NCBI GenBank assembly: GCA_026545765.1
Contig: JAIFAC010000017.1
Coordinates: 336,001 to 400,000 of the forward strand
Direction of reading: 5' to 3'
Length of the DNA: 64,000 bases
DNA from: Plantago major
Lineage: Eukaryota; Streptophyta; Magnoliopsida; Lamiales; Plantaginaceae
In this document: positions 1,219-28,039 of the stretch, piece by piece
Numbering within the stretch: the first letter of the stretch is position 1
How the letters are laid out: each line of letters begins with the position of its first letter
The notes under the pieces: generated by a model
Database searches by the model: none
Told to the model about the DNA's origin: nothing
The model's input: only the letters and a program-made list of their open reading frames with translations
Position numbers and translations under genes: made by a program

Positions 1219-3536
1219 TCAGTTCCTAATGCTCACCCACTCATAACGTCCTGGAAGAGGCAAATCATTGGCCACATCGAAGTTGTACCTGGATCAAACA
1301 GACAAGAAAACATTTTAACACAAACGGGTTAAAGTATAACAATTGTTACATATGGATCCCTCACTTAATAGCCTACTTGGCCGAGGTGTTAAATAAGGAA
1401 TGAATCAGGGATCCATGAGGTGAAAAATGTAGTGTTCGAAAGAAAATTTATGAACCATACTTCTCCAGAAACAGGCGTTGCAGCGATTGCTGTTCATGGA
1501 GGAAAAGATCCTCCACCTCAGGCACGGAAGTAACTGTGGCATTCCGGATATTTTGATTAGAGGTGAAAGTAAACTTTTTCTTTCTAATGGTACAAGGAAT
1601 GGGGATAGTATCAGCAGACATGATTAAGCCACACGGTGTGCTCTCTCGGGTACTCCTGCCAACAATTATAATGGTTAGATTAATGCATTCAAAGAACGTT
1701 CAGTCATGTGGTCTGCTAAGGTCCACAAAAAGAATATAAATGGTAAGTGATGAAATCTAAGAAGCTGAAAGATGGTTCAACATCAGATACCCCACGTATT
1801 TTTCTTGCAGTTATCTACTTGTGGCCCATTGAAGAAGACAGAAAACTCTGATTATATCTGTCTACCATTATTGCTGCTGCATCCAGGAAAGAACTGTTTT
1901 CAGACAGAAAAAATATTGGGTTGAATTCTATACAGCCATATCCCCCGGATAGTCCCCCACGATAACTATCTATCGTCAAATTCGTCAGGTAAGACAATGT
2001 TTCAGGTTATCGTTTTCTTTAATGCAGACGAGCCCAGTGTAATAAAACAGCAAGGATTCTAAAGGACTGTAAGCGCCAAATTTATCATTAATGATGTTGC
2101 ACACAAATATACCACGTTACTTAGATTAATGCTAGAGTTACTGATATGGCTAAGAAATTGTGTGTCGTGTATAGGAAAAGCCGCTGCAGAATGTCGAGTA
2201 AAGAAATATTGTAACCCCCAGGTACAAAAACCATGATTCGATGAGACAGAACTTGAGTTTGGCTCGGATTAGGATCCGAGGAATGTACGAGTTTATGAGT
2301 AGGTAAAATCTGCTACGAAATGGGCACTCAGCGTTGGTTCTGAATAAATTTTGGGAGTGAAATGAAACATTCATGGAGGGGCCTACTCCAAGGGAAAATC
2401 TAAACCAGTCGGAACCAAAGGCAGACGAAAAATTAATAATGTCTGTACTACTACATGTTTTCACCATGAGAGCCAAGTTGAAGTACTTTATGAGTCCATA
2501 AACAGTGAAAAAGTCAAAAACGGAAGAGCAGTAAAGCAACACCGTCGGTGGGGGCAAAGAAAGATTGAATTGGTGTGTGCCTGTGTTATGATCATTTATA
2601 TCTAAAGGCATGTGGGGATAGAAAGTGATGGAGAAGCCAAGATGATTGTTTTTTATTTCATTAAAAGAAGCATCATTCAGTAAATCACCAGGACCAACTT
2701 TTCTCTGAAAGCAATTTTACACAGATTCTGCACCTGAAATTAAAAAATTACTATAAACTTGCAAAAAACTATCCTATGTAAAGCATTTAAAGCTATCCTA
2801 AAAAGATGAAAGGGATATCCTCAGCTTCTCAGATACGAATACTTGATTGGTCCAGTAAGGAAGTGTTGTTAATGTCATCATACATACTCTATCAAAACTG
2901 AAAAACTTGCTCAGATAATTCAGTATCCATTCCACTCTATAGCACTAGAAACAAGTGACAGATCTATAAAGCAACTAGCAGCAATTTCAGGAAATAGTAC
3001 TTTAGAAAGAACAAAAACTCTCACCCAAATTTCACCTCAAACAAGACTCATCAAACATTTCAACTAGTTGTGTAATTCCAAATATTTCACAAACTCGTCG
3101 AAAAATCGAGAATATCTCTAGTTGTAAACAACAAAAACAAATATCAGGAGCGAAAAAGTATGCAAGCCCTAGCACTGGTATAACACAACAAAGGGAAATT
3201 AAATTGCAGAAAATAAAAAACGATAGAATTTGAATTCTGAGCTTGTGAGTAATTATCAAAATTGCATGCAAGTCTGTACCTATCCAATTCCTTCCCCATT
3301 TCACTGTGTCCAGAACAGGCATAGGTGGTTCTCGGTTTTCGCGAAGGTGGCAAGGGTTTGAGCTTCTCCAGGCGCCGAGAACGGAGCTCGAGGTAGCAGG
3401 AGTCGGTCTCCGACGGCGGAGGTGCGGTGGCGGAGGATTGGCCACGGCGTTGGAGAGCTAGGGTTTTGGCGCGGGTAAGGACACCAGGAGAGGAGTCCAT
3501 TGGAGGTAGCTCACCGTTGATTTTAGGTTTCCCCAT
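1219..3536 (-). CDS. KRP: Cyclin-dependent kinase inhibitor, KRP/ICK family (three coding exons)
   Basis: KRP/ICK proteins bind and inhibit CDK-cyclin complexes in the plant nucleus and limit cell-cycle progression. Joined exons are 3280-3536, 1461-1655 and 1219-1288, giving 173 residues. Exon 1 carries the N-terminal family signatures GVLTRAKTLALQ (about residues 18-29) and YLELRSRRLEK (about 48-58). Exon 2 opens with the family motif RSTRESTPCGLI, then PEVEDLF. Exon 3 holds the CDK-binding end FDVANDLPLPGRYEWV followed by SIRN and a stop. Both junctions have GT...AG borders; exon 1 ends GAT AG and exon 2 starts G, restoring Arg before STRESTPC. The first intron is about 1.6 kb and the second 172 bp. 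The start at 3536 gives MGKPKING, a family-like N-terminus. The length is within the KRP range. A small extra exon inside intron 1 cannot be excluded, but none is needed to keep the frame. Confidence 0.93.
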
Positions 3537-3800
3537 TGGTGGTTGAAGGTGTAATTGATTTGTGAGAATGTGGGAGAGGAGAGAAGTGGAGTGTTTTGGT
3601 GTGGATTTTTAAGACTCCATTGGAGGTGGAGCTTCAACAGAGAGCGAGTAGAGAGTAGAGAGAGAAAGGGAGGGGAAAGGAAAAGGGAGAGCGGGCTATC
3701 GAATGAATTCAATTCAATTCAACTACTTTTCATACTAGTTGCCAACAATTTCTTTTCCCACCCCCACCCAAATTTGTAAATCAATCGCAGTTTTCGTGTA

Positions 3801-4353
3801 CTAATTCATCCGTTCCGAAAATAGCTATTCGTGTACTTTAATGGTCAACAAAATAAGGAAATTGAAAGAACGAATAAGAAAATGATAAAACATGAATAAA
3901 AAGTGATAGTGGATTGTTTAAATGGAAAGTTAGATATTATTTATGAGTAACTTTTGCGAGAGACCGTCTCGAAGAGACCAAATCAATATGTCAAAAACAT
4001 CGCATGTTTAGCTATAAACATTGCATATTAATAAATGCATGTAATACAACTATAGTGTAGGTTTATCATACACGTTATTTTTGAAGTTAAGCATATGATG
4101 TTTGTACGTAAATATGTGATGTTGAATTAGTCTCTACGAGGGACGGTCTCTCGCAAAAGTTTGTAATTATTTAAATGTAATAAAAATAAAGTAGAGACTG
4201 TGGATTTGTAATATTGTAAATATGAGTGTTTTTATGTGGGTATTAGTTAAGTGGGGGTAGAAGATAACATTACAAAAAATAGAAATGGTAAGATTATTGT
4301 GGGAAGATTAAAATGACAAAATAGGAAGCTTGTCATGTGACGGATGAGGTAAG
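3801..4353. mobile_element. Stowaway-type MITE with a nested MITE
   Basis: The left end CTAATTCATCCGTTCCG and the reverse complement of the right end, CTTACCTCATCCGTCAC, pair as Tc1/Mariner Stowaway-like inverted repeats. TA dinucleotides flank both ends (3799-3800 and 4354-4355). The element lies about 265 bp upstream of the KRP start codon. A second small element at 3949-4161 has inserted in it. Confidence 0.7.
3949..4161. mobile_element. Small TIR element with GAGACCGTCTC termini
   Basis: Its two ends are close inverted copies: AACTTTTGCGAGAGACCGTC on the left and its complement ending CGCAAAAGTT on the right, about 20 bp each with a further GTCTC pairing inside. It is about 213 bp and non-coding. 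Related GAGACGGTCTC-bearing sequence recurs at 43263-43513 and 45417-45922, so this is a dispersed family. No convincing target-site duplication was found. Confidence 0.65.
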
Positions 4354-4443
4354 TACTTGCTCAATAATTTTATTCTCCTTTTTTAAACCAAAAGATGCTA
4401 TACTATTTTATTAATATTAAAATAAAATAGAAAACCGAATTAG

Positions 4444-5092
4444 TGTGATCAGAAAGTTTCATAAAATTTAAATGAATTGAGAATGCAACTCATACAAAAT
4501 GCACTTTTCTTTTCAAGATTATATCCATAGTAACTTCAAAGTTGAGCACGTTTGATCCAAAATAATTTTTGGATGGGTGACCCATTAGAGAGTTTCTCGG
4601 CGTGCGCAGGAGTGATGACAAAAGTACGTGGTCGAGATCATGCATTGGTTTTGTGGGCCCTACATAGTATCCCCATAGAGCATCCCATGAATAATCGTGT
4701 CAACTCATTAGGTTGAGCCTCGACACATAAGAGGAAGGGTGGTTGGTCCGAGCAAGGCGTGGTCGGGTCGTCGTACAATTTAAGAGCGATGAATTTTACG
4801 CCATAAAGTTTCAAAGAGAGTAGAAAGATTGAGAATGTTACTCATACCAATAAGGTGTGATTTCTTTTCAGTAGACCGTATATGGGAGCTTGTACTCATA
4901 ACCACAAAGTGTATATTTCTTTTCGGGAATTTGTCTAATTTTAGAGTTAAACGTGTTTAATTAAAACAATCTTAGGACATGTGGAGGAAACATGTGTTGG
5001 TTTGTCGGGCCAACATATGAAACACATAGCAATTCATGAGTAATCGCACCGTTTTAAAGGGTTGAACCTTGACAGGGCGTTACAGTTAATCA
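4444..5092 (+). mobile_element. Two degraded Cassandra-type (TRIM) LTR copies carrying 5S rRNA-like sequence
   Basis: Cassandra elements are non-coding terminal-repeat retrotransposons whose LTRs contain a 5S rRNA-like promoter. Two related units lie in direct order, about 4444-4796 and 4797-5092. Each has a GAGAATG...ACTCATAC stretch, a CTTTTCTTTTC-like stretch and then a 5S-like segment; the first reads AAGTTGAGCACG, later GGATGGGTGACC and GTGCGCAGGAG. The second ends GGGCGTTACA, like the Cassandra end at 11912. They are old, diverged copies. Outer limits are approximate. Confidence 0.65.
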
Positions 5093-6754
5093 TAAAAACA
5101 TGTAATTTTATTACTAAAGTAACATACAACATAGGTCCACATCTAGATAAAAATGAAAAACATATTAAATTTTAAGAGACAGGGATTACATTCTTTCACA
5201 ATTTAGCCTAGTTTAGACTACTATCACGAATCCTCAGTCGGACGTTAGCAAGAGAAGTTAAAATGGTTGGAGCTTTTTCTGTACCAACTGAAAAGAAAAA
5301 GAAAAAAGATTTTTTTTTTTTTTTTTTTTTTTTGAATTAATCACAGTTATGGGAAAAACAACCATTATGTTGGGTGAAACCGCTTCACGGAACATTTGGA
5401 GTGGCCCTTCTAAATTTTTTCCACTATGATCATATACATAGGATTCATTCATGAAATCAAACCACTAGAATTCGCAAATGCGTATATCATATTTCATGAT
5501 ATCCGAATCACCAAAGTGTTATGGTTAAGTTAATTATGATATCATCATAGATACGATTTTGTTTAGCATATATTTTCATACACATCATATATCACGACGA
5601 AAAACATAAACCTTAGACATGCATTCTAGAATTTATAAGGTTAGAGTACCCCTTAGGTTTTCACGAACCATTCACCTGCAACAGTTTTAAGTCGGATGAG
5701 TCCTAAGTAGGATGAATCCTATCTTTGAATCTACAACCTTCCACCACGGACCAACAAACTTGATTTCACTTCCTTGAGAAACCCCACGGTCAAGGAAAAC
5801 CCCCTTATGTTGGGGAAAAGTTAGAATACAACGATAATTGATTTCTCAAGTGCCCGTCAGTACCTCACAAGGAGAGTCGAGCGAATAGAGAATCAAATAC
5901 GGAATATGTCTAAAACTAATTCATTAATATATCAAGGTATATGAAGAAGTAGCACATCAGAGTTTCGACGGTTCGCCTTTACTAAAAGAGTTTAGCTACT
6001 CATAACGTAAACATAATACATCATTAATAAATAAAAGTAAAGAAAAAAATTGATTAGTCTTTATGTTCTTGGCGGCTAAGGTTTCTTCTTCTTCGTTGCT
6101 AACGGCCAGGGCTTCCCTGTTTTGGGGTTTCACTTCCCCGAGGACTGGTTCTCTCTCAAGCGAGTTGCTTTGTATGCGGTGTATGAATTATGAGACCCCA
6201 AGGCTCTCTTTTATAGTGTAGGGGGGCGCCTAAAACCGCCACATATCATTAAGGAAGGTTTAAAATGAAGGGCCTTGCATTAACGTACTTGGGCCGGACT
6301 GTTTTTGGCGACAAGCAGGATGACTGCGGCCACTAGGGGGCCGCAATAGCCCTTCTGCGGTCACTAGGTGGTCGCATAGCTTCGATCTTCTAGGATGTTT
6401 GTTGATTCGTCTTTCGGGCTATTTTTGGACTTCGAAATTTCGTTATCTTGTAAAGTGGTCTCTATAAAGTTTTAGCATTTTGAATAAGCTTTGCAACGGC
6501 AGGTTATGTGACTCGATTGGACTCCTCAAACTCCTTGTATGGTTGAATCATCGTATTTCCTTATTTTCTTCGATTCGGCATAAATCTTGCGTTTTGGCAC
6601 CGGAATCGTGCAATTCCTTGAAAACACAACATCACGTACAAAATACATAAGAAAGAGGTAATTGGCCATAATATATATGATATAAATATTGAATCTTGGA
6701 AAAAAAAAAAACAAGGGTGTAAGAGTGTGTTAAATCGCACATTTTATGGTCACA
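5093..6754. other. Intergenic DNA, no gene recognised
   Basis: A 26-bp T run lies at about 5308-5333. A GC-richer block at about 6200-6400 contains an imperfect doublet, GCGGCCACTAGGGGGCCGCA followed by a GCGGTCACTAGGTGGTCGCA-like copy. This could be repeat-derived, but I cannot assign a family. No open frame here resembles a protein. Confidence 0.4.
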
Positions 6755-7576
6755 TTATATAGTTTTTCTGCAAAAACGAATTCCTTCTCTTAAATCATTT
6801 GAGCAACATATAGTTGAAAAGATCATGCTTATAAAATTGAATTAATTTGATTTTATGCTTTTATAGTGTATTATCCCAAGTTGAACTAATTAATTAACTG
6901 AACTCTTGATTATGTAGTCATAATGAATTACTTAGTGAGGAGTACATGTATATGTCTATATAATTGTGTATGCACGGATGTGGATATGTTTTACCTAAAG
7001 AACAACGCCTAGTTTTTCTATCAAGATATACCAGTACTAGAACTTACTTCTGACATTTGTAATAAAAAGGTCAAAAAAATTAATCTAATGGACCCAAGAT
7101 GTGGATTTTTAGTGCATATATGGGTGAATGTTAGGGAGATTTTAATGCGACCAAGTTGGTATGAGTCTAAAAACACAAAATCAATTCAATTCAACAGACT
7201 CACAATAATTTTGTGAGTTATGTGTCTTCTAAGGATTTAAGTGTGTGAAATATTTCAATAGAACAAGAGTAGCATGCAAAAAAATAATATAAATTACGCA
7301 GGAAAGATGAGGAAAAACCAAATTGCAAACCAAGTCTGTTTTATTTCGTTTTTTGCCTCGGACAAAATAAAAATAACATCATGTGGGGCGAGTACTATTA
7401 GTAACCTAACTAAGACTAGCTTCAAATTACACTGCAGGGAGGTAATACCAAAAGCCTACTTCTGAGCGGATCTACCTTCAATGGTGGTAGTATGAGATTT
7501 TCACACTATATTTTACACAAACCTATAAACTAAGCTCCCTCCACTGCCACTATTTCCACTTAACGGTAAATCACCA
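6755..7576. repeat. Duplicated KRP 3' flank, copy 1
   Basis: This segment aligns by eye over most of its length with 14575-15392, the 3' flank of the second KRP gene. Shared runs include TTCCTTCTCTTAAATC, GAATTACTTAGTGAGGA, GGATTTTTAGTGCAT, CAATTCAATTCAACAGACTC and AATTTTGTGAGTTATGT-like stretches, in the same order. It extends the duplication of the decayed KRP copy next to it on its 3' side and shows that a block, not just a coding region, was copied. Confidence 0.8.
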
Positions 7577-7602
7577 CGCTCAAGGCAGAACCTTTACCCA
7601 TT

Positions 7603-8107
7603 TGTGCTATTTCTAGGTATCTTGGAATTGCGGATAATAACACTGCAGAATTATGGGCCGTTCGATCTTGCTTCTAGAATGCTATATCCTTACATATTCA
7701 CAAACTTTTAATACGTACTAACTCTGTTTATGTGTTTCACTGTTTATGTAGGGGCGTAGTACCATTTCGGACAGCGCAGACATTAGTAGCTGATATACGC
7801 CAGCTGACGCGACGTTTTGTGTATCTCAAGCTCCAGTTCGTATACCGAGAATCTAACTGCGCTGCGGATCTTCTTGCACGTGTTGCTAGTTCTCGTTTTA
7901 GTTTAAAAGTAGTTCCCCCACCCCAAAATCATGTACCATATAGGATGATGACTAGGGTGTGGTCTTCAGCCCCTTCGTGGCTTACCGCATGTTTGTGCAA
8001 AGAACTCTCGGTGGGAACAACTAGGGAAGTTGTTCATCCGCCTGACCATGCGATGTATGATATTTTGTCTGTGTGAATAAATGAACTACTTTTCAAATAA
8101 ATAAAAA
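7603..8107 (+). mobile_element. 5'-truncated LINE, RNase H-like 3' end
   Basis: On the plus strand a reading frame ending at 8076 resembles the RNase H-like (RVT_3) domain at the 3' end of plant LINE ORF2. Upstream it reads LGIADNNTAELWAV (with one stop shortly after) and later VYRESNCAADLLARVAS. The tail is A-rich, ending in AAATAAATAAAAAAA. The insert is bounded by AACCTTTACCCATT (7589-7602) and AACCTTTACTCATT (8108-8121), a 14-bp target-site duplication with one mismatch. The duplicated sequence is the KRP last exon. Short length and missing reverse transcriptase indicate 5' truncation on insertion, which is usual for LINEs. Confidence 0.88.
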
Positions 8108-8330
8108 AACCTTTACTCATTCGTATCGTCCAGGGTGAGGCACACCAATCACCACATCAAAGTGCACGTGTGTATGCGACAAAAATAGAGCCGATATGGA
8201 TTTATTCGCAAAAATAGAGAAGTTATGGATTTATGTGCAAAATTAGTGTTTTTTTTAAATAAACTTTTGCACCATATCCCTGGAGTAGTTTGGCCAAATA
8301 CCTCAAAAACCCGTGTGCCCCCAAGGTTTC

Positions 8331-9575
8331 CAGGCTCGGCTAAGCCCATGTGTGGTGAGCCCAACAGCACAAGGTCTCGCCTTTCCTAGGGCCCCCAGGC
8401 CCAAATTTTGGGGCCCAACTCCAGAGTCGAGTTAAAAAAATAAATAAATAAGAATAAATGAAAATAGAAGAAGACGTCTTCTAGACAACATCAATAATTT
8501 CGGAGGCTCTTCGTCTCTTCAGTTCTCTTTCTCTTTTCTCGATTTCTTGTGCTTTTTCATCCCTAATTTCTCTTGGCATCTATTCAATTCCTCAAATTTC
8601 GAAAGAAAAGGTCGCTGCTCATTGTTCTTGTTTGATTCATGTACATAAACATGTTTACCCTTAATCCTTCATTCTAATATTTCATACATATCTCTTTTTA
8701 TCCAATTCTAGCTCTGTTTTGTTAGGCAATATGGGTTTCACTTATTGATTTGATAAAAAGACATGCAAATAGTTGGAATTTTGATTTGAGCATCTCACCT
8801 CTTTGACTTTTTTAGCTATTAATGGATATCCTTTACTCTTGTCTTGGCTGCCTAATTTCCTAAAGCGCTTTTTTTTGTTCATGAGAGAGGTTCTTTCTTT
8901 CTCTTTGATGTTGAATCTTAGAAAGTCATGTTGTTAATTGTCATATTAACTGGATCTGTTTAATCTAAGACTTTGCATTGAAAAACAATTCTTTGTTATT
9001 TGGTCATGTTGTAATGTTGTGTTTTGATCTTGAAGTAGTCCGTCCAGAAACGAGAATTTTGAAAGAATTTTGGTGGCTAAGTGTTTGTCATAGAAATAAA
9101 ACCTTGATTTAAGTAAAAATTAAGTATTTTTAATCCAATTTTTGAATTTTAGTTGTTAGTCAACATACTCTAAGTGAAAACTTCTAGAGTTAGAGTAGAG
9201 ACTGCAGTTAGTTTGATGAATTTATGCATAAAATAATTTCTATTATTTCAAAAAATATCATAGGTCAATGTGACAAGAACGACTCAACGAACTAACGATG
9301 GTATCAATTAATAATGATATGATGGAGAAAGCGAGTTATGAAGATTTAATTGATGATCTTGCTTCAAAGCAAGCTAGAAGAGTTGCACTTTTCAACTAAT
9401 ATTTATAGTCGTTTGTTATATGCATTTTTTCAAAAAATAGATTTATATACTACTTGTAATGGATGAATTTTGTTACTTTTCATTTCTATAAAAGAAAATT
9501 TTATTATAGTATTATTTGGTAGGGCCTTGCTTAAAAATTTCACACAGGGCCCTTTAAATCTCGAAGACGGCCCTG
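8331..9575 (+). mobile_element. hAT-superfamily DNA transposon, internally deleted
   Basis: The ends CAGGCTCGGC (left) and CAGGGCCGTC (right, complement) fit the CAGGG-type short inverted repeats of hAT elements. Flanking 8-bp sequences AAGGTTTC (8323-8330) and GAGGTTTC (9576-9583) are a target-site duplication with one mismatch, as expected for hAT. GGGCCC-rich subterminal stretches occur at both ends. Removing it restores continuous alignment with the intact KRP intron near 15620. Only a small transposase remnant remains, so it is non-autonomous. Confidence 0.88.
9298..9399 (+). pseudogene. C-terminal scrap of a TTF-type hAT transposase
   Basis: A 33-codon frame, starting MVSINNDMME and ending ASKQARRVALFN plus stop, resembles the extreme C-terminus of plant TTF-type (zinc finger MYM-like) hAT transposases, which commonly end with a short conserved helix after the hAT dimerisation region followed by an ASxKARRV-like tail. 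The dimerisation and catalytic parts are absent. It lies near the right end of the hAT element, so the 3' end of the transposase gene was kept while the rest was deleted. Confidence 0.6.
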
Positions 9576-10151
9576 GAGGTTTCTAGATAATTCATCAAAT
9601 CATAGGACTATCTAGTGTCATCAACTAGTAATGTTAATGATTCATATTTCTTGATAAAGTGTCTTCATGGACGAAAACCTCCTCAAGTTTCGGGGCCGTT
9701 GCAATATTCTCATCGGGCAGCAGTATTATCGGGAGTTCTCTGCCTAGTTAAAGAGCTAGGTGACATCATCAACAACCCTAGTGAAATTACTTTTGTTATC
9801 TCTAGTGCTCTTGCCCAAGTGAACAAATAAGTTGTTGAAACAATATTAAGCCAACATCATTATTTGTCCCCATAAAAAACTATCGAAATAGCGTGGATAG
9901 GTTGTATTATAGTATGATGGTAGAGCCTCGGAAGAGCCTTCCTTACAAGACAATCCAACAGGCGAAGTCAGATTCCCCTAGGAATGCCTTACGAGGGGAA
10001 TTATCATTCCCCTCGGATTTCAATATTCATCCGAGGGAAACCACTTCTGTAACGACCCGGACCACAAATGGGCCGAGTCCCGACCCTTTGGCCGGCGCGG
10101 TTACTCATGGGCAGCTCTTCGGGTAATATGCTGGCCCCACTGTACCAACAC

Positions 10152-11692
10152 GGGAGAATGGCAACTTTGGTCCACAACTATGGGGTCATTGTGACATGCA
10201 AACACCACTTTGCAAGAGTTGGGATTTATAGTCCACAACTTTTATAACTTGGCAAATTAAGTACATTCTCGACAAATTAAGGACTAAACTGGCTGATTTG
10301 GCATTGATTTTGCTGATTTGGACTCCTTGACACACTTAGTCAACAATTACTCATAAGTTGTTGACTGCCAACTCAAATAATTTGCCACACAAGCATTGAG
10401 TAAAAAAAATTAAATAAAAAACCCAAACGTCACTATAGAGAAACGTTTAAATCTAAGTCCCAAATCAAATCAAAAAACTCAACACTTAGCAGAAAATGAA
10501 AGAACAAAAAACGGGAGAACATAGAATAGAAGTCGAAATCCAAGGCGCAATCCAATGCCGACATTGATTCGAGTTCGACCAGACTATATGCTCTTCTTGC
10601 CACCACTTCTTCATGGTTAGTTTCCTCTGTAATTTGTGAATCGATTTGGTTTGTGTGCGTTTTTGTGTATTGTTTTCATAGTAGAACTTTGACTGAGAAT
10701 GACCTAGTATATATAGTGGGTTCTGGTGATTTGTTTATATGGAATGGTCCCCATGTTTAATTGGCGTGAATGGTGGTACATTGTAGTAAATATTTGAGTT
10801 AAAGTGAGTAGATATTGTATTAAAGTAAGCAACAGTGGTGATGAACATAGCAAGTACAAACACCATCTACTGGCTCTGTTTTTTCTTCAATTTCATGATC
10901 TTAGCTTCCTTAAGTTCCATTATTGCAATCAAATCGATATTATCTTTAGTGAGTTCATGCACCTCATCGGTTAGTTCCTTCACCTTGTACTCCAACCTGC
11001 CTAACTTCCTTAGCAAACCAGGTATCACTTCCTTCGATCTAAGACACATTTCATCGTCATACCAGGCCCAAAAGTTACAGTGTTGGCGTGGGGGAAGTCC
11101 CTAACACAAATTAAACCATAATCAAGACAAAGAACAAAAAACAAAGCACTACAGCACCCACACATACACCACCAAAACATCAATTGAACAACAGAAACTC
11201 ACCTTGTTGACGCAATTTATAAAACGACGACCTGGATTTTCGTGAGTCCATGAAGTGATACACCAAGCTCGCACCCCGTAATAGAAATTCAGCACAGGTT
11301 TGTTAACCAATCTTCGGTTGTTGTTCGATGTTCCACTGGTACTGCTCGACATCACCGAAATTCAGTTTTAGGGTTTCTGAGATGTGGGAGGATGAGTAAT
11401 TGGGGGAAATTGTGGTAAAATTTTGCTTTTAATAGGTCAAACCAATTTGGAGGGAAACTCCAATTTTCCCGCTTTTTTTTCCCTTGGCAGTGAACAAGTG
11501 TTGACTAAGTGTGTCCAAAACTCCAAATCAGCAAAATCACTGCCACATAAGAAAGTTTAGTCCTTAATATGACGAATTTGCACTTAATTTGCCAAGTTTA
11601 AAAAGTTGTGGACTGGAAATCCCAATAGTTACAAAGTGGTGCTTGCGCGTCACAATTACCCCATAGAAGTGGACCAAAGTTGCCATTCTCCC
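10152..11692. mobile_element. Non-autonomous long-TIR DNA transposon carrying a GRF zinc-finger gene
   Basis: Both ends start GGGAGAATGGCAACTTTGGT when read inward, and the inverted similarity continues for about 220 bp (10152-10370 against 11480-11692). Long TIRs suggest a Mutator-like element. No transposase frame is present. A spliced minus-strand gene for a GRF zinc finger with a coiled coil lies between the TIRs, as in a Pack-MULE that took up host coding sequence. The flanks read TACCAACAC on the left and ACACACATG on the right. They share a CA-rich stretch but are not a clean 9-bp duplication, so the superfamily is not settled. Confidence 0.75.
10867..11355 (-). CDS. GRF-type zinc-finger/coiled-coil protein inside the TIR element
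   Basis: Joining 11203-11355 and 10867-11100 across a GTGAGT...TTAG intron gives 128 residues. The N-terminal part matches the GRF zinc finger: TSWTHENPGRRFINC, then HCNFWAWYDDEM. The end is a charged coiled coil (KVKELTDEVHELTKDN and later repeats). In typical GRF fingers a CxCG pair precedes TSWT; here the equivalent is FYYG, so part of the zinc site looks lost unless the Cys in RAWC substitutes. Proteins with this GRF plus coiled-coil plan are common in plant genomes and often tied to repeats. It lies wholly inside the TIR element, so it is probably a captured gene. Whether it is expressed is unknown. Confidence 0.75.
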
Positions 11693-12214
11693 ACACACAT
11701 GTCCTTTCCCGCGCACTTTGTCCTCACTTGTGTGCGAACTGGGAGACTTTCCAGTTGGTCACCCATCCTAAGATTGCTCCAGAGCAAGCACACTTAACTC
11801 TGGAGTTCTTATGGATGAATTCCCGAAAAGAAAGGTGCACCTTGTTGGTATGAGTAGCGCTCTCGATCCCTTTAAGCTGTTTGGACTTGACTTAAAACTT
11901 TGGGGCGTTACAACTTCTACCCAATAATGAAAATACACCAACACTGTTCCTTTCGAGGGGAACTCATTACCTGTAACAAGGGGACTAACGGACAGGTGGC
12001 GAGATCTGGCAAGGGGGACAAGATCCCATAAATCAAGGAGACTTGTCCCCTCAATCTATAAATACAGGGCTACCCCCTCACATTTTATGGTAAGCCTTCA
12101 TAATCTCATCTACCCCTGCTCCCGAGCTCCGAGGAGAACAACCTACAACTCTTTATTTGAGTCTACCACCGGCTTGTCCAAGGCAAGCCGGCTAAAAGGG
12201 CTGACCCCTTCCCT

Positions 12215-12365
12215 TTGTTACGCAGGGACCATTACGAGGGGAACTTGTACGCCGAGAACTGGTACGCATAGACCATTACGAGGGAAACTGGTACGCAGGG
12301 AACTCTTACGTCGGGACCATTACAAGGGGAACTGGTACGCAGGGAACTTGTACGAAGGGAACTTA
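12215..12365 (+). repeat. Short degenerate tandem repeats in the outer LTR
   Basis: Phrases such as ACCATTACGAGGGGAACT and GGTACGCAGGGAACT recur about every 15-40 bp, with exchanges between GGTACGC and TTGTACG forms. They sit between the LTR TATA-like box and its right end, so they probably belong to the R/U5 part of the LTR. Confidence 0.6.
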
Positions 12366-12488
12366 ACTAAATCATTGAGCACAACATGACTAGGACCACA
12401 TCAACCCTTACGAGGAGAACGCTTACGAGGAGAATTGGATTGGCCTTTACATCATCAAGCGCAATTGAGAGTATATTCTTTTAAATTT

Positions 12489-12565
12489 TGTACTACCCCA
12501 TTTGAGTTTCTTCAAAATTGAAGAAACTGGAAATTATTCCCCAAATCAAGATTTGGACAACCTAA
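12489..12565 (+). repeat. Direct repeat flanking a MITE, copy 1
   Basis: A stretch containing GTACTACCCCATTTGAGTTT, then TTCAAAATTGAAG, GGAAATTATTCCCCAAATCA resembles 13580-13655 (GTACTACTTTTAGTTTATTC, GGGAATTTGTTCCCAAATCA). The two copies flank the TIR element at 12667-13572. They could be a local duplication or the ends of a larger unrecognised element. Confidence 0.5.
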
Positions 12566-12666
12566 ACATTTCAATATGTTTCTATAATAGTTTATAAACC
12601 ACATCAAGCCATTCAAACAAAATTTGACTCGAAATAGCGCAATTAATAGTTTTTTCCCCAAAAATC

Positions 12667-13572
12667 GGGGTAAAATGCACAAATGTACCATATGTTCTTC
12701 AAAGTATGTACGGATGTAACTCATGTTCTTGAAATTGCACCAATGTACCCAATGTTCTTTAAAAGTATGCATACTTGTTCCGGTAATGATGAGTGCACAA
12801 ATTGGGCTTATTTTTTTGCATAAAAATCTTAAATATTCACTAATAATAAGAACAATATAAATTAATTTTATTTTATAAAATTTAAGAGTTTACGACAAAA
12901 ATTATGATAGTTTAAAAAATATTATTAAGAATTATATAAAATTAAAAAAAATTATTAAAGTACAAATTAACATAAAATGAAGAAAATAATATGTTTTTTC
13001 TTTATAATTTTTTTTAAAATTAGTATAAATGCATTAATATAATTTTCTAAAATTGTTAGACAGTTTCACTTAAATATTTTCAGAATAATAATAATTCATA
13101 ATATGCACTATATTTTCATAACTCTTTTGCCTTCAATAATTTTGATAACTTTTTGTAGTGCTATTATAAATTTTGATAATATCACTACAATAAATTTTTA
13201 TAACTTTTTTATTTATATAATTATTTTTTCAATTTAACAAAGTTGTTACATATATTTATATTTCTTTTAATTTTCACATATTTCTATTTTTTTCCATTTT
13301 ATTATAATTTTTTATTTGTTTTAATAATTTTAAATTAATCTTATTGCTCTTTGTTTCAAAAAATAAATATATATTGTGAATTTTAACACTTGTATGCTTA
13401 AAATACAAATCCATTTGCACACATGAAGAGTGTAATACACACACCATTATTGGAGCAAGTGTGCATACTATGAAAGAACATAAGGTACATCCGTGCAATT
13501 TCAAGAACATGAGGTACATCCGTGCATATTTTAAAGAACGTAGAGTACATTTGTGCATTCCCCCCCCCCCCC
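12667..13572. mobile_element. Non-autonomous TIR element with subterminal minisatellites
   Basis: The first and last 160 bp or so are inverted copies. Each arm contains about three units of a roughly 32-bp motif, of the type AATGCACAAATGTACC followed by ATGTTCTTCAAAGTATG. The interior is very AT-rich and non-coding. Flanking AAAAATC and AAAATC may be the target duplication. The right end carries a C run that merges with the terminus. Open frames in the arms are by-products of the repeat. Confidence 0.75.
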
Positions 13573-13672
13573 AAAATCGTGTACTACTTTTAGTTTATTC
13601 AAAATTAAAGGTATTGGGAATTTGTTCCCAAATCAAGGCCTGCCACCTGAAAACTGACAACCTCACTTGTTA

Positions 13673-14439
13673 GGCCATCTCCATCAGAGTTGGAGATGGA
13701 GTTGCAAAGCAACCAATGACTGCTTTGGGACGCTCAATGGCAATTAGATTTGTCCCAAATTTTGGGACGAGTTGCACCATCCTTTTCCTTTTTTTTTAAT
13801 TTTTTTTTGTTTTTTTTCCTTTTCTTGTCTCTTTGTTTTTATTTTTTCTTTTTGTTTTTTTTATTTCTATTCCTTTTCTACTTTTATCTTTTTTATTATT
13901 TTTCATTTTTTTTAATATTTCTATATGATAATAATTATATGTCGAAATAGAAATATACTTATACATTACTTCTAAAATTTAAAATACATATTAAAATCAC
14001 ACTTGTAAAATGTAGTATTTTAATTTTTGTAATTTTCATTTTCAATTATTTTAATTTTCAATTTCAAGTATTGTAATTTTCAATTTTAAGTATTGTAGTT
14101 TTTTTTTAAGTAATGTAATTTTTATTTTCAAGTAATATATTTAAAAAATATTAGTGTGATTTTGTTATAATTAATTAACAACATTTAAAATAAAGTCAAG
14201 AATAAAGTTTAAAAGGAAATGAGAAAATAAAATGAAATGAATAATTAAGTTTGAAAGAAATGTTAAAAGAAAATAGATTTTGGGCCTCACTGTTGGAGTA
14301 GAAAATTGTGGAGAGTTGCAAAGTGAGTTGCAGTGAGTGGAATGCTGACGTGGCAGAGAGAGTGGGTTGCAGAGAGTTGCAACTGCTGGAGATGGCAGAG
14401 AGAGTGGGTTGCAGAGAGTTGCAACTGCTGGAGATGGCC
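13673..14439. mobile_element. PIF/Harbinger (Tourist-type) MITE
   Basis: The ends read GGCCATCTCCA and TGGAGATGGCC, with TTA on both sides (13670-13672 and 14440-14442). That is the 3-bp TWA-type target duplication of PIF/Harbinger. The element is about 767 bp and non-coding, with long T-rich tracts. Near its right end a 42-bp unit with AGAGAGTGGGTTGCAGAGAG occurs twice in tandem. This is not obviously the same subfamily as the Harbinger transposase at 21062-22440, whose visible terminus differs. Confidence 0.85.
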
Positions 14440-14574
14440 TTAGAATTAACTAAAATGACTCATATGAAATTTCTTACCAGCTTGGCCGAAGTAAAAATTT
14501 CCCTCTCATCTGCACTAAAAATCCACATTTCGAGCCATCTTGATCGTTGGTAGGATTATAGTCATCAAGACCCA

Positions 14575-15392
14575 TCTAGTTTTATTGCAAAAAAAATTCC
14601 TTCTCTTAAATCTTCACATGAGCATAGTTGACAAGATCATGCCTATAAAATTGCAGCTGATTTTATGCTTTTATGGTCTAGTCGAACTGATTAATTGAAC
14701 TCTTAATTATGTAGTTTTAAATGAATTACTTAGTGAGGAATACATGGATATGTCTGTATCTGGAATTGTGCATGTGCATAAATGTGGATCTATTTTAACT
14801 GAAGAACAACACACTTGGTTTTGTTGTCAAGATTTACCACTATAAATTAATAGCTTATGATATTTGCAGTAAAAAGCAAAAAGATAGTACGGATTTTTAG
14901 TGCATGTAGGTGTCAATGTGAGGGAGGTTTTTACTGCGATCCAGATGGTAAGAAATTTAATATGAGTCTAACAACATAAAATCAATTCAATTCAACAGAC
15001 TCACAATAATTTTAATGAGTTATGTACCTTCTAAAGATTTAAGTGTGTTAAATTATATTAATAGAACCAAAGCAGAATGTTAAAAAAAAAAAAAAAAGGA
15101 ACACTATAAATTACACACGGAAGATTAGGAAAACTAAATTGCAGACCAAGTTTATTTTATTTTGTTTCTACCTCGAACGAAATAAATATAACATGGATGA
15201 GTACATATGCATTAGTAATCCGACTAAGACTAGCTTCAAATTACAGCAGATGGAGGTTATACCGAAGCCTACTTCCGAGCAGATCTACCTTCAACAGTGG
15301 TTAGTCTGCGACCTGACACTATATTGTACACATTACTAGAAACTAAGCTCCTTCCACTGCTACCGTTCCCGCTTTACAGTAAATCACCACGC
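14575..15392. repeat. Duplicated KRP 3' flank, copy 2
   Basis: This is the partner of 6755-7576 and directly abuts the stop codon of the second KRP gene. The order of shared blocks is the same in both copies. The duplicated block therefore runs from about 1 kb downstream of the gene through its last two exons. Confidence 0.8.
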
Positions 15393-17142
15393 TCAAGGCA
15401 AAACCTTTACCCACTCATAACGTCCAGGGAGAGGCACATCATTCACTACATCAAAGTTATACCTGCGTATGCGACAAAAACATAGCAGTTATGGATTTTT
15501 CGCAAAACTAGAGCTGTTATGGGTTTATGCGCAAATTTAGTGGCTTTTTTGATAAAAAGTTGCACCAGATCCCCGAGTAGTTTGGCCAAATACCTCAGAA
15601 ACCCGTGAGCCTCCGGGGTTTCTAGATAATTCATCAAACTATAGGACTATCTGGTCATCCACTAATAATAATGATTCATACTTCTTGATAAAGCGACATT
15701 GTTCTGACTGCTCGTTATGGGTGAAAAACTCCTCAATTTCTGGGGCAGTCGGAATATTCTCGCCGGTGGCAGTATTTTCAGGAGTTCTCTGCCTAGCTGA
15801 AGATCCATGTGGGGTGACATCATCAGCAACCCTAATGAGACTATTTGGGTTGTTATCTCTACTGCCCCTGCCGAATGAACACATAACTTGTTGAAGCAAT
15901 AAAAAACCAACATTATTTATTTACCTTGTTTTTGCACAACCCCATGATGGAAAATAATTTTTAAAATCTCCGTCCCGGAGAAGCGTTACTGTTCATACAC
16001 AGGTTTTAAGGAGAGTAATATTATAACGCTATATATTATAGTACATATATTATAGTACATGTAGGTTTACTTTATGATTTTATTGATATTTTTTTGACTT
16101 ATTTAGGAATATTGGAGAATATAAAATTATATAATTGTTCCTAAAATGGCAAAGAATTGAAAGTTGACAACTCTACCAAGTTAACAACTCTACCGAGATA
16201 CCCAAAATAGCAAAATTGGACAACTTCTATGGGACGGATAGAGTACATATTTGAGTTATTAAATTTCTTTTGGACATGTAGTTGTTTATACTTTATACGC
16301 ATCTATGACAATATAAGAAAGATTGCCAATTATGTTCATTGTTGAACAGATCGTTCAACAATACAATCACATAAGATTAAGTGCAAAAGTATAACCAACA
16401 AAAAAAACTTGCACACAAATTTTATACAAACAAAGTTAATTGATAATGTAATTTTAAGCAGACGCAAAAGGTTTAAGCCCATACCTTCACACCACAAACT
16501 ACCAAAATTTGACAATGGACACATTTAAGGGAAGCAAAAGATGCATATTAAAAAACAACAACAAAAAGCCCTTACACGTCATTTAAAGAAGCCTAAAAGA
16601 GGATTAGCATAAAAAAAAATTGTTTTATTTGCGCTTGATATAAAAAATCAACCTTTTTTTCCTTTTTAATGTTGTAATTAATATTATTATTATTTTCTAA
16701 AATCGATTCAAACCCAACAAAAACAAGAAAAAGACGTACACACATTCTGAAAATAGAACAATTCACACCAATTTCATCACTAATAACAAACAATTAAACT
16801 CCAATCACATAAAACAACAACTTCAATCGAGTTGAAATTAGCAATTTACCTTGTTGTGGCATCCAATTCCACATCATTTTCACCAGAGACAACATCATGA
16901 ATCTCCTCCAATTCCGGATATTTCTCCTCTGGAGTGTTCTCCTTATCCTCCTTGTCCTGCTCCGGACTTCGCCTCTTCTTCCCCAACACCACCATTTTCG
17001 GCTTCTCGGGACGACGAGAGCGTAACTCCAAATAATCCGGCTTCTCTTGCAAGGCTAGGGTTTTGGCACGAGTTCGAACACCCAAATAGCTCTGTGACAC
17101 CTCCATCAACAAAATGTCACTTGTGTTTCCTTTCTTCACCAT
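15393..17142 (-). CDS. KRP: Cyclin-dependent kinase inhibitor, KRP/ICK family (second gene)
   Basis: Exons 16850-17142, 15682-15867 and 15393-15462 join to 182 residues. Exon 1 has GVRTRAKTLALQ and YLELRSRRPEK, both family signatures, then a Lys/Glu-rich stretch. Exon 2 carries a divergent form of the RESTPC block, then PEIEEFF. Exon 3 encodes YNFDVVNDVPLPGRYEWV and KVLP before the stop, the CDK-binding C-terminus. Intron phases are the same as in the KRP gene at 1219-3536, and both last exons are 70 bp. The first intron is 982 bp and the second 219 bp. As in the family, it should act in the nucleus on CDKA/D-type cyclin complexes. All frames are open, so it looks functional. It differs enough from the first gene to be an older paralogue. 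Confidence 0.93.
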
Positions 17143-17358
17143 TTTTGTGTGGAAGGAAAGCTCTGAGTTTTTCTTTTTTTCTTTTTTTAGTTAGTAGAAG
17201 AGTGAGAAAGGAAAGAGGGGGGTAAAGGAAATATGGGGAAATGGTTTGGTGTATTTGTAAATGGTTTGGTGTAACACTTTACCTATGTTTTTTTTAGTTG
17301 TAATGTTTGGTTAGCTTTTCTTTACTTGAGTTTATCCAAATTTGGAAGAGAAAATATG

Positions 17359-17614
17359 CTCCCTATGTCTCAATTTCATATTCTCACTTGACTTTTTCTG
17401 GTCAACCCTTACAAATTTTATCTGCGAATTATTTATAAATAATGTTGATGAAAAAAATTAAAAATTCATATTATTAAATATTTACATTTTAATTTTTCAT
17501 TATATATTTTTAAAAAATTCCTCATAGGTATTATATGTAATTAAATCAAACTCAAAGTTAAACGGTATTAATCATAAAAAGTCAAATTGAAAGATAAAAC
17601 TGGAACGGAGGGAG
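17359..17614. mobile_element. Stowaway MITE (CTCCCT...AGGGAG)
   Basis: The ends are CTCCCTATGTCTCAATTT and its inverted partner ending GGAACGGAGGGAG, the common Stowaway termini. TA follows the right end; the left neighbour is TG. About 256 bp, non-coding, 217 bp upstream of the KRP start at 17142. Confidence 0.75.
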
Positions 17615-20269
17615 TATGTGCATTTAATTTTATTTGTTTTGTAGTCAATTTTGAAATGTGTTTACTTTTTACTTAATGTGTTGAAAGTATTTTTAGAATA
17701 AAGTAATTGATTTTGTATTTACGATAACGGTTTTCGAGATTTTGAAATGTGAATTTGAGTGACTAGTGCATGATCACACACGTAAAGTAGTCGTAAACTG
17801 TGGCATCGGTAAAGTTTACTTTTAATAATAAATTGAAATGTGAAAATTAAATAAATTAATCGAAAATAAAAGATAGTCAAAATTCATTGTAAGCAACGTT
17901 AGTCGTGGTGTCGATCGGTAGTCATTCTTCATCCAATATTATATCATTGAGTGTTTATTTATGTTAACTATAGAAAATGTAAAAAATAGGGTACTACCAT
18001 ACTCGACTTGTTAATTAGTAACAAGTACATGTTTTTTTACACAAAAATCTATCCCTCAAACGGAACCCAAATAAAATACAAAAGTATACAAAATAATCAA
18101 TAGGGTTGTTCCCAACAATCTCGCGGTGATATGTGGTCACCCCAACGCACACACAAATATTATACAAACGTAATTTCACATGTCACGGTTGTTTTTTCCA
18201 ACCCACCGGTTCCCAGCAACCCCGCGGTGGTATGCGTCACCCCACCAAAGACACAAAAATTATTATTCTACGAACATAATTTCACATGGAAAAAAAAATG
18301 TAGTTTCTACTAACTTAATCATAAAATGTTGTGGTCGGGTCTTGTAACAAAGGTATGGAACGGGTTCGAGTATATACCAGACCGGACCTGAACATCATTA
18401 TTTCGAACGGGGTTGGAATTCGGGTTGGATAGAACTAGTCCTTCCAGCCAGAGATTGTAGAGAAGAGAAACCTTACACCTCATCCTACCGATCGAATCAT
18501 ATACATAAAGAAAAGGAAATTGAAAGTCTTAACATGTAAAAAGTTGTTGATAGACACGTAAAGATCAACACACCACCAATTAGCTCACGTGTGTCTCTTC
18601 TATCTTCTGGAACTGAAAATAACACGTCTAGTACACGATTCATAGAATATTCTTAGAAGATTAGTTGAAGGAATTATGTCAAGCATAGATTCAAAGGTCC
18701 TCCAATCTGGATTCATACCCATTAAGAAAATTAGTGTGGGTGGCGATTTTGATGGAATTATGGGATTTAGAAGATTTGATTGATCACATTTATAAATAGT
18801 TGCAAAGGTTGAACTATCATTGGCAGAATTATGTAACCAAAATTAGATTAAAATTGTAAAGGTAACAGAACCAAATACGCATTAACTTGGCATCAAAAAT
18901 AAATTTACCCTGATTATAATTGTTTTGTAATTTTTTAATCTAAAAAAATGAAAGAATTTATCATATTGATTTGAGGCCAAAGTACCATAGCTAGAATTCA
19001 TAATAAAAACTGGTCTTTATAATATATGGATAGATCTCATCTTCACATGCTTAAACATTGAAAATTAATATATTACTTTATTCTTTATCTTCTCACCTCT
19101 TCTACTTTATTCACTATCTCCTACGACTGTTCATTATTTTTCATACATAAGTATTTAGAGAAAAGTTGAAACCTAAATTCAAAAAAAAAAAAAAAAAAAA
19201 TTAGAGAGTTAATACAACTTAACATGAATTTCTTTTTTACTTTAATATTGTATTAGAAAATGTCCAAGTAATTAGAACGCTCCAAGTATCATTTATGCAC
19301 ATGCTGATCATGTGTGCTTCAAATTAAACCATCAACTTTAGAATATAGTAGAAAAATGGGGTTATTACATATACCCCCTGTTATATAGGGTCATTACATC
19401 TAAACAGCAGTTAGTTCAACAATTACATCTAAGTCCAAAAAGCTGATTTTTCGTTGATCAGCTTATAAGTTGAAATTGATTATTGGACAAACAAATCCTT
19501 AGTTTATTTTACCCCCTTTTCAATTTTAATACACAATAATGTCCAGAAAATAAATAAAAAAATGGAAAAATGATTTAGGGTGAATAAAAAAATATGAACA
19601 ATAAATAAAAAACAGAAAAAATTATTTTTAAAAATATTTTTTTTGAAAAATAAATAAAAATTAGAAAAGTTATTTTAAAAAAAATATGAAAATAAATAAA
19701 TAATATAAAAATAATTTTTTTGGATAATAAATGAAAAATAGAAAAATGATTTTAAGAAATAAAAAAGAAATTACAAAATAAATAAAAATTGAAAAATAAA
19801 TAATGACAAAAATGTTTATAAAATAAAAAATTATGAAATATAAAATAAAAAATACAAACAAATGTGAAAAACAATATAACATTAATTAAAACATGTTTCC
19901 TTTCACTTCCATGGAAGCTCCATCCATGGCAGGAAGATGAAAGTGATTTGTTAGAGATTGATTGATTCATGAATCTGTTGGTTGCATCCTGCCTCCTCCT
20001 CCGTTATTCTGCCTCCTCCTCTTCTCCACCCATGCCTCCTCTGCTCCGCTGCTACCTTTCTTCGTCATCGCTTCATCTTCCTCCAGTTTCAGATCTGTCG
20101 TCTTGGATGATGTTTATTGGACGTACAATGATTGCTCATGTGTATATCGAAGTTTAAAACCGAGATTCGTTCAAAATATTGAAGAACCAAAGTGTAAGAA
20201 AGTTATGGAATTTTACAGGGACTTGATTGAGGTTTTTAAAAAAATAAAGGACTATCATTTGAGAATTAG
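17615..20269. other. Intergenic DNA with short repeats, no gene recognised
   Basis: At about 18113-18290 a unit of roughly 95 bp occurs twice with divergence. Both copies have CGCGGTG near the start, CACCCCA and CACAAA-like middles, and AATTTCACATG at the end. An A run lies at about 19180-19200, and 19550-19870 is a simple AAATAAAAA-rich tract. A Pro/Ser-rich open frame near 19962-20273 has no recognisable domain. Confidence 0.45.
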
Positions 20270-21061: not shown

Positions 21062-22440
21062 CTACTCAACGTTGAAAGACCAAACATGGTTGATCATGTC
21101 GTCTTGAAGCTGTAGATGGGTCTCTCGACTTTCTAGGTCAGCCCTTTTCGCCAAATAGCCCTCCATTTGATTGATCACGGAATCCCTGCGTTCAAAGACA
21201 TTATCATCTTCGTTGTGGATGCCTAATTCTACAACATCTTCTTCTAATTCAGCTATGACGTCATTGTAGTTGCGATATAAGTGCCGCTCATCCTCCACTA
21301 TCATATTGTGCAAACAAATGCAACAGTTGATGATCCTAGCAAGGTCTCGTCGGTTATGGGCCAATGCTGGATCTTTAATCACTTTGAAACGTGATTGTAG
21401 AACTCCAAAAGCACGTTCGACATCTTTCTGGCACGCCTCTTGCCGATTGCAAACTTAGCCTGTTTTGGATTGATAGGACCTTTATTTGACTTCACAAATG
21501 TTGTCCACTTCAGATATATGTCGTCCGTTAGATAGTACCCCATGTTGTATTGATTCCCATTCACTTCGAAGTTAACAGCAGGAGCTTCTCCCCTTAGTAA
21601 TTCGTCGAATATCGGTGACCTTTCCACCACGGTGAGATCATTCAACTTCTCTGAAACACCAAAGAAAGAATGCCAAATCCAAGTATCCTGGGATGCAACC
21701 GCTTCCAAAACAAGTGTGGCTTTCTTGTTTTTTCCTTGGAACTGCCCCTTCCAAGCCGACGGATAGTTCTTCCATTGCCAGTGCATGCAATCGATAATTC
21801 CAAGCATGCCGGGAAAACCTCTTGTCGTGTTCACCTCGAGTAACTGACGTACATCCTCCTCATTGGCCCTCCTCATATATGTTGGACCAAAAACGACAAC
21901 AACACCATCACAAAAAGCCTTTAATGCGTCTTGACCAGTCGTTTCACTCACTTGAGTGTATTCGTCGACCATGTCTGCACATACACCATATGCAAGTTGT
22001 CGGATGGCAGATGTGCATTTCTGTTTTGCCGTAAAACCCAACCTCCCAATTACATCCGGACGTTGTTGAAAATATGGAACGTGTTGCTCTAAAGCTTCAA
22101 TGATCCGGAGAAATAATGGCCTTGCCATCCTAAATCGACGTCGGAACTTGATCGCGCCCCATGTTGGACGTTCAACAAAGTAATCGTTCTCGAGGTGAGC
22201 AGAAAATTCTTCCCTCTTCCGATCAATGTATTCACGCGTATACCCCGACCTCCTTCGAGCATTTTGTTGATCGCAGTGGCTGATTATATGAGGAGTGGCT
22301 TGAATAAGTAGTTTGGTAGCACGGGTATAATAATCAGTTTGTGTGCTTGAAGAAGAAGAAGAGTAATCAGTATCAACTCTAAACTCATCATCATCGGAAC
22401 TAGATGATAAGTTGTTGATGTAGTGATTAATTGAAGACAT
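21062..22440 (-). pseudogene. PIF/Harbinger transposase (HARBI1-like), one frameshift
   Basis: The DDE nuclease of PIF/Harbinger elements cuts and rejoins element ends. The frame starting at 22440 encodes a Ser-rich N-terminus, then RPLFLRIIEALEQHVPYF, GIIDCMHWQW (first catalytic Asp) and YYLTDDIYLKW (second Asp). The third acidic residue (DVERAFGVLQSRF) and the C-terminal part (RIINCCICLHNMIVEDE) lie in another frame ending at 21062. The switch occurs near 21445-21451, where one base seems missing before CGGCAAGAG. Apart from this the gene looks complete, about 460 codons. A TATAAATA box lies on the same strand at 24151-24158, separated from the ATG by a solo LTR. The element terminus on the promoter side is visible near 24417; the other end was not found. 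Confidence 0.88.
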
Positions 22441-22456
22441 GTTTGAGTTTATAGAC

Positions 22457-24077
22457 TGTTGGTCCAGATAACGGCAAAGTAAAAGACTAGAGGGGGGGGG
22501 GGGGTGAATAGTCTTTTAAAACTTTTGTCGATAACAAATGTTTCTCAGATATCTCAATGGATATCTGATACTTAGAATCAGAGTGCGGAAGACTTAATGT
22601 AGATAAGTGTAGAAACAGTTAATAAGTGTGTGTGTGTGTTGCTGAAGTATAAATACAGAAATGTAAATGACACAGCAAGTATAGTGGTATCTGGAGGTGG
22701 CGTAATCCTCCAACTAATCCACTTCGGTCTATCAGAGACCTAGAATTCACTAGAACAGATAATTGAGATAACCTTACAAAAATCCTATTCTAAGATTCTG
22801 AACAATTGGTTCCCAACCAAATGTTCCCCCTGAGTTGTTCCCTAGCTTCTTCAGCCAAGTACTTCCTATACTCAGAAACCTTTGAGTTGTTCCCTAGCTT
22901 CCCAAGCTAAGTACTTCCTATACTCAAAAACTTTGGAGTTATTCCTTAGTTTCCCAAATCAAGTACTTCCTATACTCAAGAACCTTGGAGTTATTCCCGA
23001 TTTTTCAAACTAAGTACTTCACATACTCCGCCTTGTTTCGTGTTGGTTTGATTTGAGTTGTCAGATGAGCGTCTTAATAACTTTTCAGTTATTCAGATAG
23101 CTCTGTGAACTTAGTTACTTAATACACTTTACAGCGTATGGTATCTAGTTCGATTTTACTGACCCAAGTCTTATGAAATCTGTTCAAGAGAATGAATCTC
23201 AGATAGTTGATCTTTTGATTTAACTCCTTCACAGATAGCTTTGCTTGTTTAGGATCAGGACACTTAGAACTTCAGTGTTTACTCAAGATCACAAGCTTTA
23301 GTCGCAACAGAAAGCTTTGATAATAAGTAAGTTGCTTTGAGAGAGTAGGATGTTCAGAGTTCTATGTTTCAGCGTATGCAATGTGTCGTGTGTATCTCTC
23401 AAGCTGTCTAAGTGTTGATATTTATAGATGGATTTGAGTGCCGTTTGTCTTCTTCTCAGAAGTTGCCGTTGCTTTTACTCAGACATCTCTGTCCGTGCAT
23501 TAAATGCATTGTACTATACTTTTTGTCATGTAGTGTCAACGAAACTATGCATTGTATCAGAGACTAGACTTTGTTGTCTGATTCTTTGCACGTCCTTATC
23601 TTCATTCTTCAGATACCACTTGTATTGATTGAAACAACCTTGTTTCTTTTCATAAACGTGTTTAACGCTCAAGGTATCTGAGAACAGATATCTGTGGACA
23701 CTTTCCTTGTCTTCAGATATGTATCTCATTTCTCAGATATCTCTTGTGACACGCTTTGTTTGAAATGCTCGTGTTCACAAGATATCTCGCTAAGATATCC
23801 GAACAATGATTCAAGAATCTTGTGCGCTTTTCAAGTCTTAAATTCTTGTTGAGCTTTCTGCTTGGATGTCTTCTTCTTGGTCTTCTCTTCATAAAATAAA
23901 AATTACATTTTGAGACCTAACATCCTATACAAGATTAGCTAGACTATCATACTTAGTGGGTTTCCTCTTTTACAATGTTCAAGTGAACCAAGAGTACTAA
24001 TCACCTTTCTGAGACTAAGATAAGTCATCATGTTGCTGAACAAAATCTAAACAGATATTCTAACAAAATATCTAACA
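22457..24077. mobile_element. Solo LTR in the leader of the Harbinger transposase gene
   Basis: A 1621-bp block begins TGTTGGTCCAG, ends ATATCTAACA, and is flanked by the 5-bp duplication TAGAC (22452-22456 and 24078-24082). It has a G run (22492-22504) followed by TGAATAGTCTTTTAAAACTT, and many CAGATATCT motifs. No coding region and no second LTR are present, so it looks like a solo LTR, probably of a Copia-type element. It sits 17 bp upstream of the transposase ATG. Confidence 0.88.
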
Positions 24078-27700: not shown

Positions 27701-28022
27701 TCCAGCGTATTATGTGCATAGACAAAAGTGGTCCACTGTATGAGGGTATCTTGCAGGTCATAGATACTACAATGAATGAATTGATCCGATTTCGAGTGAA
27801 CTCAGAGCTTAATCCGATCATTCGGAGAATCCAAATCGCCCATTCGGGTGGTGGGTATAGTTATCTGGTAGGTCCATTTATTTCCAAACGAGCCCCGATT
27901 CAGATAGCATTCGGTTCCTTGAGTTTTAAGTAGCAAGAATATTAACATTAAGCGAATTGAGGCGGGAGCTAACCTCACGATGTTTTGCTACTTTATTCAG
28001 CCCCCGTGTATTCCAGGCTAAC
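24708..28022 (-). pseudogene. LINE ORF2: endonuclease, reverse transcriptase, zf-RVT
   Basis: ORF2 nicks target DNA and reverse transcribes the element RNA. It begins near 28022 with MLAWNTRGLNKVAKHRE, the usual start of the apurinic-type endonuclease. That domain continues with MVIGDFNNVLGPLDRVGG and SRIDRALCN, SDHSPL. The reverse transcriptase region (about 26700-25500) has MRPISCCSTVYKIISKIL, SAFLPGKVI, LRQGDPISPLLFV and the catalytic FADDLLLF. The C-terminal zf-RVT region (about 25250-24800) has CMLCPQAETQHYLFFECPY. Stops and frame changes lie between these blocks, for example near 26640 and 25250, so the protein is not made intact. Confidence 0.9.
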
Positions 28023-28039
28023 ATTGGTGTCGGGTTGGA

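Follow-up and report, generated by a model that had tools for sequence, protein, structure and literature searches.

Introduction

KRP/ICK proteins carry a CDI domain at their extreme C terminus, and these inhibitors are dosage sensitive. Their genes have a recognizable architecture. Most KRP genes of soybean and nine other species contain three or four exons, and among these the last shows the strongest conservation of both size and sequence (PMC9911667). Class C genes in the six species of a maize study generally contain three exons and one large intron (PMC5338338), and the KRP proteins of pepper are marked by the motifs PLGVRTRAKVLALQR, YLQLRSTR, and TRESTPCSLIREPDSVVTPG (PMC13408456). No tandem duplications were found among the KRP genes of soybean (PMC9911667), and the six pepper genes lie on six chromosomes (PMC13408456). 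Since KRP genes are dispersed in both surveys, a neighboring pair is a modest local oddity. A literature search for KRP tandem pairs in Caryophyllales and for KRP in quinoa found nothing.

Here we describe two KRP genes and one dead copy within 16 kb of Plantago major DNA. "The window" refers to the whole stretch of 64,000 nucleotides that was analyzed; its introns and plant-type transposons mark it as plant-like. An earlier note on this DNA had described two intact KRP/ICK genes and one dead copy on the same strand, and had explained them by tandem duplication followed by decay. The coordinates proved accurate, and the locus comprises the following features.

1219-3536, minus strand: gene 1, a group-C-like KRP/ICK gene (gene model, Pfam CDI match, and motifs)
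6757-9868, minus strand: middle dead copy, a partial duplicate of 14574-15922 split by two transposon insertions
7601-8104, plus strand: 5'-truncated LINE in exon 3 of the dead copy (boundaries and Pfam RVT_3)
8331-9575, no strand assigned: hAT-like element in intron 2 of the dead copy (boundaries and gap in the alignment with gene 2)
9869-14573, no strand assigned: junction between the dead copy and the gene 2 unit, transposon-derived sequence
14574-15922, minus strand: source segment of the middle copy at gene 2 (self-alignment)
15393-17142, minus strand: gene 2, a group-C-like KRP/ICK gene (gene model, Pfam CDI match, and weak p27 matches)

Results and Discussion

Both intact genes consist of three exons on the minus strand. 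The exons of gene 1 (3536-3280, 257 bp; 1655-1461, 195 bp; 1288-1219, 70 bp) code for a predicted product of 173 amino acids with the C-terminal end YNFDVANDLPLPGRYEWVSIRN. Those of gene 2 (17142-16850, 293 bp; 15858-15682, 177 bp; 15462-15393, 70 bp) code for a predicted product of 179 amino acids that ends with YNFDVVNDVPLPGRYEWVKVLP. Every intron is of the GT..AG type, and the two genes agree in the phases of both introns and in the 70-bp last exon. The first intron of gene 1 (1624 bp) is a prediction made solely by eye; inspection of its three-frame translation, also by eye, revealed no convincing missing exon.

The two proteins match the Pfam CDI model (PF02234) above its cut-off of 25 bits (gene 1: 48.3 bits, E 1.1e-12, residues 132-170 of 173; gene 2: 65.4 bits, E 4.8e-18, residues 133-177 of 179), which places the domain at the C terminus as in other KRP/ICK proteins. 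The same stretch of gene 2 gave weak matches to human p27 structures in the PDB, with E values of 0.03 to 0.13 that are below significance by themselves. The resemblance to the inhibitory domain of animal p27Kip1, as known from solved CDK-cyclin complexes, is visible in the sequence KYNFD..N..PL.GRYEW here and K.NFD..N.KPLEGKYEW in p27, but is limited to about 28 residues. By analogy with the family, the products of both genes would presumably bind CDKA-cyclin D through the conserved C-terminal CDI domain and restrain the cell cycle.

Both proteins also contain the motifs TRAK.LALQ and YLxLRSRR, and both genes have three exons with one large intron. They resemble group C KRPs (Arabidopsis KRP3/KRP4/KRP5 type) in the C-terminal CDI domain, in LGVxTRAKxLALQ, in the putative nuclear localization motif YLELRSRR, and in a gene structure of three exons in which the first intron is large and the last exon constant (PMC5338338, PMC9911667, motif table of PMC13408456). 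The motifs also match those of pepper, except that the third (TRESTPCSLIREPDSVVTPG) has been lost in gene 2. Specifically, gene 1 contains GVLTRAKTLALQR, YLELRSRRL, and STRESTPC, with TRESTPC retained in the context STRESTPCGLI, whereas the same position in gene 2 has eroded to TRDNNPN (TRDNNPNSLI). Unlike typical group C proteins, gene 2 also lacks the MGKY start motif, and gene 1, in which the central region is short, begins with MGKPK.

In a six-row tree in which the Arabidopsis KRP sequences serve as a yardstick only, genes 1 and 2 group with KRP3 and KRP4 apart from KRP1 and KRP6; support is modest (80/83), and the tree does not order the branches within the group. No relative was found when bacterial and archaeal genome contigs were scanned, as expected for a plant gene. 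Judged by their sequences, genes 1 and 2 are best read as group C KRPs. On this reading their exon structure would be inherited from the family. The earlier note had cited the agreement of the two genes in intron phases and in the 70-bp last exon as a sign of duplication. Both features are present, but a three-exon structure and a last exon of constant size have been reported throughout the family (PMC9911667, PMC5338338), and for this reason they are no evidence for a tandem event.

The middle copy has a different relation to gene 2. Self-comparison of the window by blastn aligned it with gene 2 in three colinear blocks of the same orientation: 6757-7600 with 14574-15413 (75%, E 1.7e-162), 8106-8333 with 15400-15625 (83%, E 1e-57), and 9578-9865 with 15617-15922 (76%, E 1e-56). 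Together these blocks run from the last part of intron 1 through exon 2, intron 2, and exon 3 into 0.8 kb of 3' flank, which bears out the claimed alignment of the copy with gene 2 and its downstream sequence. Both splice sites of intron 2 are lost in the copy (donor GT to AT, acceptor AG to AC). Exon 2 contains deletions of 5 bp and 16 bp, other indels, frameshifts, and premature stops, and in exon 3 a tryptophan codon has become a stop.

Two transposons interrupt what is left. The LINE in exon 3 contains an open reading frame (7678-8076) that matches Pfam RVT_3 (E 1.3e-8), an RNase H-like reverse-transcriptase tail; its 3' end is A-rich, and it is flanked by a 12-bp target-site duplication (AACCTTTACCCA/AACCTTTACTCA). 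The hAT-like element in intron 2 has the ends CAGGCTCGGC and GACGGCCCTG and an 8-bp target-site duplication (AAGGTTTC/GAGGTTTC) with 7/8 positions alike. Because of the lost splice sites, the indels, the stops, and these insertions, the middle copy cannot encode a KRP protein. It resembles ordinary partial tandem-duplicate pseudogenes of plants, namely an intron-bearing fragment of a neighboring gene with frameshifts, stops, lost splice sites, and transposon insertions, and differs from them in nothing of note. A search of the 64-kb window by blastn and tblastn identified no further KRP copies beyond genes 1 and 2 and the middle copy.

The divergence between the middle copy and gene 2 provides an estimate of its age. 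Non-coding positions differ by a K2P distance of 0.233 +/- 0.017, and exons 2 and 3 by 0.21 and 0.16, all estimated from short sequences. Changes are distributed nearly evenly over the three codon positions (10/74, 12/73, and 15/75). Since exon divergence is close to that of non-coding DNA (0.16-0.21 versus 0.23) and the codon positions are near-flat, there appears to have been little selection on the copy. This pattern of substitutions suggests that lasting selection never acted on the copy and that it evolved neutrally from early on, with constraint acting on the gene 2 branch. At a rate of 6.5e-9 substitutions per site per year, which is an assumed general value, the duplication would date back about 18 million years.

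The earlier note had also stated that the copy lacks exon 1. In agreement with this, when intron 1, exon 1, and the promoter of gene 2 (15923-18500) were compared with both strands of the junction (9869-14573) by the Smith-Waterman method, the scores stayed within the shuffled range, and therefore the copied unit, as far as visible, stops in intron 1. Two histories would fit: a duplication that was partial from the outset, or a later removal of the 5' part or its replacement by transposons. The partial duplication is the simpler option, in which case exon 1 may not have reached the middle locus at all. The loss of a third gene, as the note describes it, goes beyond what the sequence shows, as the middle copy contains no more than 1.35 kb of the gene 2 locus.

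The junction and its surroundings contain several other elements. Part of the gene 2 3' flank is present a third time, in inverted orientation, at 14457-14573, which matches 14916-14968 (83%, 53 nt) and 7080-7165. This piece lies beside the edge of the duplicated unit and may be a trace of the rearrangement from which the copy arose. A PIF/Harbinger-like MITE at 13670-14443 has the ends GGCCATCTCCA and TGGAGATGGCC and a TTA target duplication. A Harbinger-type transposase is encoded at 21379-22515 (Pfam Plant_tran, E 2.5e-59), with a further piece at 21062-21454; the terminal sequence of the MITE was not found around this open reading frame. The element at 10036-11912 has the ends TGTAACGACCCGG and GGGGCGTTACA, a possible 5-bp duplication (ACTTC), and inverted arms of 197-202 bp at 10152-10353 and 11491-11692, and a related end is located at 4468-4622. 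A terminal-inverted-repeat element at 12667-13572, with arms of about 122-129 bp (84%), is flanked by AAAATCG. No exact LTR boundaries with 5-bp target duplications were found at 9865-12667. Farther away lie a LINE with a reverse transcriptase (24708-28638, Pfam RVT_1, E 9.2e-39) and a frame that is broken several times, a possible host-gene exon with a ZZ zinc finger (36501-37118, minus strand, Pfam E 7.7e-5), and another possible host-gene exon (51919-52404, minus strand) without a Pfam match, which we take to resemble LEUNIG-like co-repressors.

Genes 1 and 2 are far more distant from each other. They are neighbors on the same strand, about 12 kb apart, and when aligned with the references their proteins are identical at 64/149 positions (about 43%). 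The NG86 estimates are dN 0.55 and dS 1.63, and 17/27 fourfold sites differ, which indicates saturation. Over the last 44 codons dN is 0.29 versus a dS of 1.35, and hence selection has conserved the CDI end. Comparison of introns and flanks by blastn, and by Smith-Waterman against shuffled sequences, revealed no homology, only simple-sequence scores at the level of the shuffles. From their sequences we conclude that the two genes are paralogues much older than the split between gene 2 and the middle copy. The claim of tandem duplication followed by decay thus stands for gene 2 and the middle copy, given their non-coding homology and the lesions; it does not carry over to genes 1 and 2, with saturated dS and no non-coding homology.

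The reading that we prefer, with a probability of about 0.78, is that two old KRP paralogues lie side by side and that part of gene 2 was copied later and then decayed. Genes 1 and 2 would have separated first, before any non-coding sequence that can still be aligned. Much later, a segment of about 1.35 kb from this locus of gene 2, consisting of its 3' half and 0.8 kb of downstream sequence, would have been copied in the same orientation and inserted downstream of gene 2, where it is now about 5 kb away. Without a promoter or exon 1 the copy was probably non-functional from the start. Its decay by point mutations, indels, and the LINE and hAT insertions is directly visible.

A single tandem series of whole-gene duplications could instead have produced all three copies, with the middle one losing exon 1 afterward. 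The same strand, the similar clade-type motifs, the spacing within 16 kb, and the plainly local duplication that links the middle copy to gene 2 would all fit. We nevertheless consider this scenario unlikely: exon 1 and intron 1 are untraceable in the 4.7 kb of the junction, the exons of the copy have diverged nearly like non-coding DNA, no non-coding DNA links gene 1 to the other two and dS between the two intact genes is saturated, and the common exon structure is family-wide (PMC9911667, PMC5338338). Somewhat less probable still is that a Helitron or Pack-MULE type element captured the fragment and moved it. The surroundings are rich in transposons, the fragment retains an intron, and the short inverted piece of 3' flank at 14457-14573 adjoins the edge of the unit, but the copy has the orientation of its source about 5 kb away, and no terminal repeats were found that enclose 6757-9868 as a unit.

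Compatible with our preferred reading of two old paralogues and a later partial copy is the view that genes 1 and 2 are an ancient, long-kept tandem pair and not paralogues brought together later. Their adjacency on the same strand makes an ancient tandem origin plausible, and the lack of non-coding homology does not speak against it, as the genes are too diverged for any to be expected. In addition, both carry group C motifs, and in the six-row tree the four group C proteins cluster apart from KRP1 and KRP6 with the modest support given above. On the other hand, the genes are as similar to the yardstick sequences of AtKRP3/KRP4 (42 to 46% each) as to each other, with 44-46% for AtKRP3 against 43% between the pair, the tree gives no branching order within the group, and chance or the relocation of one copy could also account for the adjacency. 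On balance we give this view even odds. The more specific proposal of a very old, conserved group C tandem pair, held together by shared regulation or divided function, seems to us improbable.

Conclusion

The dead copy is a routine case of partial duplication and decay. The pair formed by genes 1 and 2 could help to date the expansion of the KRP family in this plant lineage.
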